In this document: positions 125 through 17,977 of the stretch, piece by piece
Position numbering within the stretch: position 1 is the stretch's first letter
Layout of the letters: every line of letters starts with the position of its first letter
NCBI GenBank assembly: GCA_016176845.1
Contig: JACOWJ010000016.1
Span: forward strand, 1 to 25,876
DNA length: 25,876 nt
Direction of reading: 5' to 3'
Source of the DNA: Nitrospinota bacterium
GTDB lineage: Bacteria; 2-12-FULL-45-22; JACOWJ01
Notes under the pieces: model-generated
The model's database searches: none
What the model saw: the letters and a program-made list of their open reading frames with translations, nothing else
What the model was told of the DNA's origin: nothing
Program-made: the position numbers and the translations under genes

Positions 125-1384
125 TTACATCCTCCCACCCCGGATGGCCTTTCCCAGGTTGAAGATGGGCAGGAAAAGGCAGATCAGAATGATCCCCACA
201 AGGCCCCCCACCAGGATGATGAGGAGCGGCTCCAGGACGGAGGTGAGGGTGGTGGTGGAGGCCTCCACCTGCTGCTCGTAGAAATCGGCCCCTTTGTTGA
301 GCATTCTCTCCAACTCTCCGGCTTCCTCTCCCGAGTAAATCAGTTGGATGAGGGTCTCCGGAAAGATCCCCTCGGCCCTGAAGGAGTCGGCGATCGAGCT
401 CCCGTTCCGGATGGCATCGATGCTGTTCAGGATGGCCCTCTCCACCACCCGATTCCCACTCGTCTGGCTCACCAACCTCAGGGCCTCCAGGAGGGCCCGG
501 CCCAAGACAAGGTCCCGGATCTCCTGCCTCATCTCCAGCATCTCGATGATCGCCGTGCGTCCGTAATATCCCGTGTTCTTGCACCGACGGCAGCCGGTTC
601 CCCGGTAGAAGAGGACCTCTCCCCCCTCATCGGGCCTGAGCCCCAAGCTGGCGAGCAGTTCCTGGGAAGGGACGAAGGGCTCTCGACAGGAGGGACAGAC
701 CACCCGCACCAGCCTCTGGGCCACCGCCAGGCTTAGGGACGAGCAGACCAGGAAGGGCTCGATCCCCATGTTGATCAGGCGGATCACGGTGCCGACGGCG
801 TCGTTGGCGTGCAGGGTACTGAGGACCAGGTGGCCCGTCAATGCCGAGCGGATGGCCATCTCTGCCGTCTCCAGATCTCGGATCTCCCCCACCATGATGA
901 TGTCAGGGTCCTGACGCAGGATGTGACGCAGGCCGTTGGCGAAGGTGAGGCCAATGCCGGGCCGGCCCTGGAGGCGATCACCGGGCTGATCTCACAGCCT
1001 GTCAGCGCCTTCAGGGAATCAATGGCCAGGGATGTCAAAGGGATCCGCCATGGCCAGGCTGAGCCGCCTTCCCTCCCGGGAGAGGGGGAAGACCTGGTAA
1101 CGGTGCAAGAGCTGCTCGGGGAGGAAGGAAAGCAGCGCGGGGTCTATCTCACCCACACCCCTCTCGAGGTCCAGGCAAGGGATGCCCAATTGAGCCCCTA
1201 ACAGCCGCATGATCGCCATCTCCGAGGCGAAGCCGAGACTCACGATAATCTCTCCCAGCCGCCCCCCTTTTCTCCTCTGCTCGTCCAGGGCCATCTTGAG
1301 CTGATCCTCGGTGACCAGTCCCTCCGCCAGCAGCAGATTCCCCAGCTGGTCATAGCCCAACCGGTATCCGTATCCCTTGCTCAT
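125..1384 (-). pseudogene. Collapsed gspE/pilB - gspF/pilC remnant (type II secretion / type IV pilus)
   Basis: GspE/PilB is the hexameric assembly ATPase and GspF/PilC its inner-membrane platform. Reading leftward from ATG 1384, the first ~120 residues are a GspE N-terminal domain (MSKGYGYRLGYDQLGNLLLAEGLV) ending in MADPFD. The frame then breaks near 1035. The next stretch ([22 protein letters not shown]) continues in another frame to about 965. The original frame resumes at [19 protein letters not shown] with Walker B and His motifs (MVGEIRD, STLHAND) and a tetracysteine zinc site (CPSC...CRRC). The central ~170 residues with Walker A (GPTGSGKTT) are missing. Near base 505 the ATPase C-terminus is replaced in frame by the last ~125 residues of a GspF protein ([24 protein letters not shown], a C-terminal membrane segment) ending at 125. 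It cannot encode a working ATPase or platform. An assembly error is the alternative. Confidence 0.85.
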
Positions 1385-8694: not shown

Positions 8695-9064
8695 GTGCCC
8701 GACAAGAGCTTGAAAGACAGGATTGCCATCGTAGGCATCGGGGAAACCGAATTTGTCAGGGCTTCTGAGAAGAGCCTGGAAGAGCTCGTCATGGAGGCCG
8801 TTCTCAAGGCGATTGAGGATGCAGGCCTCTCGGTGCAGGAAGTCGATGGTCTGGTCACCGATGCCACCATCATGTGGCCGCGGATTAAAGCGGAAGATGT
8901 GGGTCGCAACCTGGGAATAGCGCATCGCACGTTCTCCGCCTGTATGTCGCTCGGGGGCGCGGGGGTAGTGGGTGCTCCCCTGCTGGCGGCTGCCGCGATT
9001 GACCAGGGTCTGGCCAGGAACATCGTGTGCTACTTCGGGGTTGACTGGGGCTCGGCGTCCGGGT
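8695..9064 (+). pseudogene. N-terminal fragment of a thiolase-like (SCP2-type) acyl-CoA acetyltransferase
   Basis: From GTG 8695 the frame reads [20 protein letters not shown], then a typical thiolase helix ([20 protein letters not shown]), and ...[35 protein letters not shown]. This is the first ~123 residues of the SCP2/acetyl-CoA acetyltransferase-like family, whose members run about 380-400 residues. The catalytic His/Cys region is absent. At about base 9060 the thiolase similarity stops and the aldo/keto reductase begins in the same frame. The fragment cannot be an active thiolase. It may still be translated as an N-terminal extension of the reductase, but the reductase has its own ribosome binding site. 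Confidence 0.75.
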
Positions 9065-9084
9065 ATCTCGAAAGGAGGGATCGA

Positions 9085-10071
9085 ATGCGACGCGCAAGCT
9101 TGGGGACGAAGGGGCTTACGGTATCCGCGATCGGGCTGGGCTGCATGGGGATGTCACAGTCCTATGGCAAGGCCGATCTTGCCGAGTCCGAACGGACGCT
9201 GCGTCGAGCGGTGGAGCTGGGGATCGACTTTTTCGATACGGCAGACGGCTATGGCTGGGGACACAACGAGCAACTGGTCGGACGGGTGCTCGGCTCGATC
9301 CGCCATGAACTGAAGATTGCCACCAAGTTTGGCATGGTGCGATTGCCGGGGGGCAAACGGAGCGTCAACGGTCGGCCGGAGTATGTGCGGCAAGCGTGTG
9401 ATGCCAGCCTTTCGCGGCTCGGGATGGAGGTGATCGATCTCTACTACCTGCACCGCAAGGACCCGCAGGTAGAGATCGAAGAGACGGTCGGCGCCATGGC
9501 GGAGCTCGTCACGGCGGGCAAGGTCCGGTATCTCGGATTGTCGGAAGTTTCTGCCGCGACGCTGCGCAGGGCCTGCGCCGTGCACCCCATTGCAGCGGTG
9601 CAAAGCGAATACTCCCTCTGGACACGGGACCCGGAATCCGGGGTGCTGCCGGCCTGTCGCGAGCTGGGGGTGGGGTTTGTGCCGTTCAGCCCGTTGGGCC
9701 GCGCGATACTGACCGGCCGCCTGGTATCGACCGAGGGCCTGGACGAGCAAGACATGCGGCGCACCATGCCGCGGTTTCAAGGGGAGAACTTCGAGAAGAA
9801 CCGGGAGCTGGTCGCCCGCGTCTCGGCCCTGGCAGAGCAGAAAGGCTGTACGGCGGGTCAGCTGGCGCTGGCCTGGCTGCTGGCGCAGGGCGACGACATC
9901 GCCCCGATCCCCGGCACCAAGCGCGTCCGCTATCTGGAGGAGAACGCCGCGGCGGTGGACGTGGTGCTGTCGGCGCAGGAAGTGGCGCACCTGAGCGAAC
10001 TGATGGCGCCCGGGGTGGTGTCGGGTGCCCGTTACGCCCCGGAAGGCATGTCCTTGCTGGATCGGGATTGA
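9085..10071 (+). CDS. Aldo/keto reductase (YghZ/AKR13-like)
   Basis: This NAD(P)H-dependent TIM-barrel oxidoreductase has 328 residues, the normal family length. The tetrad is complete: Asp51 and Tyr56 in [18 protein letters not shown], Lys81 in ATKFG, His123 in YYLHRKD. Other conserved blocks are [52 protein letters not shown] and [17 protein letters not shown] 9085 is chosen because AAAGGAGG lies eight bases upstream and the family N-terminus ([19 protein letters not shown]) starts there. The open frame begins 390 bases earlier only because an unrelated thiolase fragment is fused in frame. The substrate is unknown. The gene may have been acquired, since everything around it is fragmentary. 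Confidence 0.88.
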
Positions 10072-13706: not shown

Positions 13707-13765
13707 ATTCGTCATCCCAGGGCGGGTTACGAGCTTGTGGAGCCGGGTTAGACCCAACGGCTTTC

Positions 13766-13865
13766 ATTCGTGTCAACTTAAGGTTTAGTCCTGGGAGCGC
13801 GGCCATCCTGGCCGCTCCTTGCGGGCGGGGGCGCCCGCGTTCCCAGGGGTTAAGTTGACCCGAAT
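13766..13865. repeat. 100-bp MITE-like element, family A copy 3
   Basis: It begins ATTCGTGTCAACTTAAGG and ends TTAAGTTGACCCGAAT; the 16-bp ends match at 15 positions. The interior carries GCGGCCATCCTGGCCGC and a second GC palindrome. An exact 11-bp direct repeat, CAACGGCTTTC, flanks it at 13755-13765 and 13867-13877. It lies 48 bases before the activator gene, within its leader. Confidence 0.87.
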
Positions 13866-17816: not shown

Positions 17817-17977
17817 CGAATAGATTCGCCCTCGTACATAAGGGAAGCCCTCTATAAGGTTTTATCCGGCCTAAACCGGCATAGCCAGGCAGAGTTGACC
17901 GCCCCCCGAGAATGAAACTGAGCTCCAAAGAGACTCGGGCAATTTCACGGTAAAAAATTTCATTCATGGAGGATCGA

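Follow-up and report, generated by a model that had tools for sequence, protein, structure and literature searches.

A probable recent pseudogene of a gspE/pilB-gspF/pilC operon, preceded by a mobile repeat, in a Nitrospinota bacterium

Results

A shrunken gspE-gspF pair at a contig edge

The window analysed here is a stretch of 25,876 nucleotides from a Nitrospinota bacterium and corresponds to the entire contig C21 of a 1.53-Mb assembly (61 contigs, estimated 68% complete). On its minus strand, starting 125 bases from the contig edge, positions 125-1384 carry the remnant of an adjacent gspE/pilB-gspF/pilC pair. We called lesions against the best relative found, the Thermodesulfobacteriota MAG L039 (JAQYWG010000001.1), in which gspE (580 aa) and gspF (~412 aa) are both intact and lie next to each other, gspE first. 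The two genes also lie side by side in G001, a genome of the same order, where each of the two proteins aligns over a long stretch. Compared to L039, the pair has shrunk from ~3.0 kb to 1.26 kb and now holds two open frames, one of 121 codons (1384-1019) and one of 256 codons (895-125). The features of the locus are as follows.

1019-1384, minus: N-terminal GspE/PilB remnant with a c-di-GMP-binding MshEN-type motif; 121 codons, ended by a frameshift; MshEN 7.5e-11, NF053729 2.9e-17; 41% identity to L039 GspE 1-117
1024-1031, minus: one-base frameshift, where GspE homology switches minus frame
955-966, minus: internal GspE deletion junction, ~243 codons, with Walker A and the Asp box gone; maps to L039 residues 140 and 384
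503-958, minus: C-terminal ATPase half of GspE with Walker B, His box and tetracysteine zinc site; 58% identity to L039 GspE; T2SSE positions 216-354
496-505, minus: junction at which a deletion of 1,011 nt, measured against L039 (L039 positions 6397 and 7408), joins GspE to GspF in frame
125-502, minus: C-terminal GspF/PilC remnant, comprising the second cytoplasmic domain and last membrane segment; T2SSF 9.1e-23; 48% identity to L039 GspF 293-414
125-895, minus: fusion open frame, 256 codons
1403-1503, no strand assigned: mobile, MITE-like repeat, multicopy in the genome and set 18 nt before the ATG of gspE; direct repeats ATCCTTGTCC at 1393-1402 and 1504-1513

Elsewhere in the window, positions 8695-10071 hold a second in-frame join of gene remnants: 131 codons for the N-terminal part of a thiolase-like lipid-transfer protein (6ok1, 4e-14) are followed, with the frame kept, by an almost complete aldo/keto reductase. 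The open frame at 24547-25167 matches nothing in Pfam or NCBIfam, and its middle resembles a fragment of a longer protein. We dropped a reading of bases 2-115 on the plus strand in which they would end a glycogen debranching enzyme, as searches gave it no support.

Three lesions separate the remnant from intact relatives

All three pieces align in order to L039 (GspE 1-117 at 41% identity, GspE from ~377 onward at 58-61% and GspF 293-414 at 48%), which bears out an earlier note, made from the letters of this DNA, that described a damaged gspE-gspF pair with three lesions. The N-terminal piece (1384-1031) covers L039 GspE residues 1-117, beyond which homology resumes in a different frame. This places one extra base at about 1024-1031; the frameshift had been put near 1035. 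At about 955-966, the alignment jumps from L039 residue ~140 to ~384, leaving 243 codons missing relative to L039. Walker A, at L039 residues 336-344, and the Asp box, at residue 365, both lie within the deleted segment (141-383). A loss near 960 that removed Walker A had thus been recognized correctly, while its proposed size of ~170 codons is too low, because the missing segment spans 228-285 codons (median 239) in 97 homologues.

The third lesion had been read as an in-frame GspE-to-GspF join near 505, and indeed separate GspE and GspF alignments abut in frame at about position 502, between residues 131 and 132 of the fusion. This 1-kb deletion took the 3′ end of gspE and the first two thirds of gspF. 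The downstream frame (895-125) matches T2SSE over residues 1-154 (2.2e-42) and T2SSF over residues 132-243 (9.1e-23), far in excess of chance. As the earlier note had it, these last 256 codons remain open as an ATPase C-terminus, a zinc site and a platform membrane segment, and no stop codon occurs from 958 to 125.

The surviving part of GspE keeps Walker B, the His box and four zinc-binding cysteines (including CRRC). A functional GspE/PilB has Walker A (GxxGxGKT) and an Asp box within one open frame of ~560-620 aa from start to C-terminus; here both motifs are gone and the reading is split into frames of 121 and 256 codons. GspF/PilC is a platform protein with three membrane segments, and a functional copy has two T2SSF domains in ~400 aa. 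The remnant retains the last ~120 of ~412 residues, with a single T2SSF domain (positions 12-125). The disabling lesions found against intact orthologues are those expected of a pseudogene.

Conserved sites are almost unchanged

Within the surviving parts of GspE, none of the 23 invariant sites and 1 of 43 near-invariant sites is changed; the surviving part of GspF shows no change at 4 invariant and 9 near-invariant sites. This near absence of change suggests that the lesions and the decay are recent. The pattern fits recent lesions, and taken alone it is also compatible with continuing selection or with an assembly error.

The main rival to a genuine pseudogene is that one or more junctions are artefacts of the contig start: joins or a one-base shift made by the assembler, or chimeras from whole-genome amplification. 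The closeness of the remnant to the contig end points that way, as do the lack of excess change at conserved sites, unexpected in a gene hit by three lesions, and the presence of another in-frame join, at about 9087, on this contig. On the other hand, neither the deleted GspE middle nor the GspF front was found in the rest of the assembly (68% complete). Furthermore, the genome holds a second GspE copy that is likewise degraded, and the mobile repeat on the 5′ side has a perfect target duplication, which is not something an assembler would invent. We therefore consider an assembly error unlikely.

The second GspE remnant lies on contig C33 (L037:4679-5350). It comprises residues 355-526 only and begins immediately past Walker A; at its other end it gives way to unrelated sequence, and it carries changes at conserved sites.

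A mobile repeat lies just upstream of gspE

A further lesion, absent from the earlier finding, is a repeat of ~101 bp at 1403-1503, which lies 18 nt before the gspE ATG and is flanked by a perfect 10-bp target duplication. Its ends are near-perfect 17-bp inverted repeats (CATTYGTGTCAACTTAA). A repeat search gave 27 matches in the genome, some of them partial or the same copy on the opposite strand. The terminal sequence occurs 34 times in the genome compared to 0 for the reversed control, and direct repeats of 8-12 bp flank 10 of the 14 copies examined compared to 0 of 182 swapped flank pairs. Based on these flanking duplications, the repeat behaves as a MITE. The copy at 1403-1503 would separate gspE from its promoter.

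Further copies are found in the window at 2069-2172 and 13764-13865, giving an element length of about 101-104 bp. A gene resembling an AbrB/MazE-type antitoxin (1762-1996) lies between two opposed copies.

Pilus and secretion genes elsewhere in the genome

As to an intact pilB/pilC or gspE/gspF pair elsewhere in the genome, a search for which had been proposed as a check, we found an intact PilB on contig C29, above its curated cut-off, and no other T2SSF gene in the 68%-complete assembly. Two PilT-like frames are found on C33. Contig C40 has two prepilin-like matches, of which one exceeds the cut-off. With PilB, PilT-like and prepilin-like genes remaining, the pathway is not entirely lost. 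Secretin, prepilin peptidase and PilN were not found in the same assembly; because it is 68% complete, these absences, like that of a second T2SSF gene, are only suggestive. A PilM match on C44 was rejected and read as FtsA, as it precedes an FtsZ-like frame.

Is the fusion a protein?

The open frame across the join led to the earlier proposal that the fusion could be translated. The frame is indeed open, and its GC at third codon positions (0.86) is coding-like. The one start codon that it has in frame is the ATG at 895, which encodes a methionine inside the ATPase, and the ribosome-binding context there is poor: predicted anti-SD pairing is -4.6 kcal/mol, compared to -7.6 at the gspE ATG and -9 to -13 at several intact neighbours, although pairing is likewise weak for gpsA and the gene at 17966. 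Together with the loss of Walker A and of most of GspF, this makes the proposal of translation weakly supported.

None of 80 related loci contains a contiguous GspE-GspF fusion; at each, GspE and GspF match separately or GspE alone matches. One plasmid match over 96% of the query was considered as a natural fusion and rejected, since it consists of two pieces under two annotated genes. Among literature titles and abstracts, we found nothing on point for a GspE-GspF or PilB-PilC fusion.

Could the 256 codons nonetheless encode a protein that works, such as a regulator of the remaining PilB or PilT hexamers that is tied to the membrane and dead in ATP binding? The open frame, the intact Walker B, His box and zinc cysteines, the unchanged conserved sites, the coding-like third-position GC and the persistence of PilB and PilT genes would all agree with such a role. 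Yet the native start is absent, ribosome binding looks weak, a mobile element precedes the operon start, no like fusion exists in the 80 related loci and GspF is reduced to its final third, while recent lesions predict unchanged sites equally well. We regard a working fusion as very improbable. Very improbable as well is the most novel variant, in which a deletion-born fusion of the GspE and GspF C-termini is produced and influences what is left of the PilB/PilT machinery, perhaps in the role of an inactive subunit anchored in the membrane. The in-frame join is a coincidence to be expected once in three such events, and most likely the remnant does nothing. If translated at all, it would yield an ATPase fragment lacking the nucleotide-binding loop and tied to a stray membrane segment.

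Discussion

We interpret positions 125-1384 as an ordinary, recent pseudogene of a gspE/pilB-gspF/pilC operon, with a probability of roughly 0.86. Insertion of the repeat, or loss of other parts of the machine, may have relaxed selection on the operon, and ordinary deletion in gspE-gspF would then have ensued. As a pseudogene the locus is ordinary: it records the recent loss of a pilus or secretion operon in a poorly sampled lineage, to which a mobile repeat may have contributed. Should the fusion be shown to be made, it would represent a motor-platform chimera born by deletion.

Compared with the GspE/PilB extension ATPases (PF00437; TIGR02538/TIGR02533), the remnant shares the MshEN-type N-terminus, Walker B, the His box and the zinc-site C-terminus, at 58% identity to L039 GspE. 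It differs in lacking Walker A, the Asp box and the last ~45 residues, and in its frameshifted N-terminus. With the GspF/PilC platform proteins (PF00482; TIGR02120), it shares the second cytoplasmic domain and the final membrane segment, at 48% identity to L039 GspF, whereas the first domain and the first two membrane segments are gone and what is left is joined to GspE. With bacterial frameshift and deletion pseudogenes, it has in common a frameshift and large deletions in an operon that can still be recognised, with a mobile element on its 5′ side; the difference here is that the second join happens to leave the frame open.
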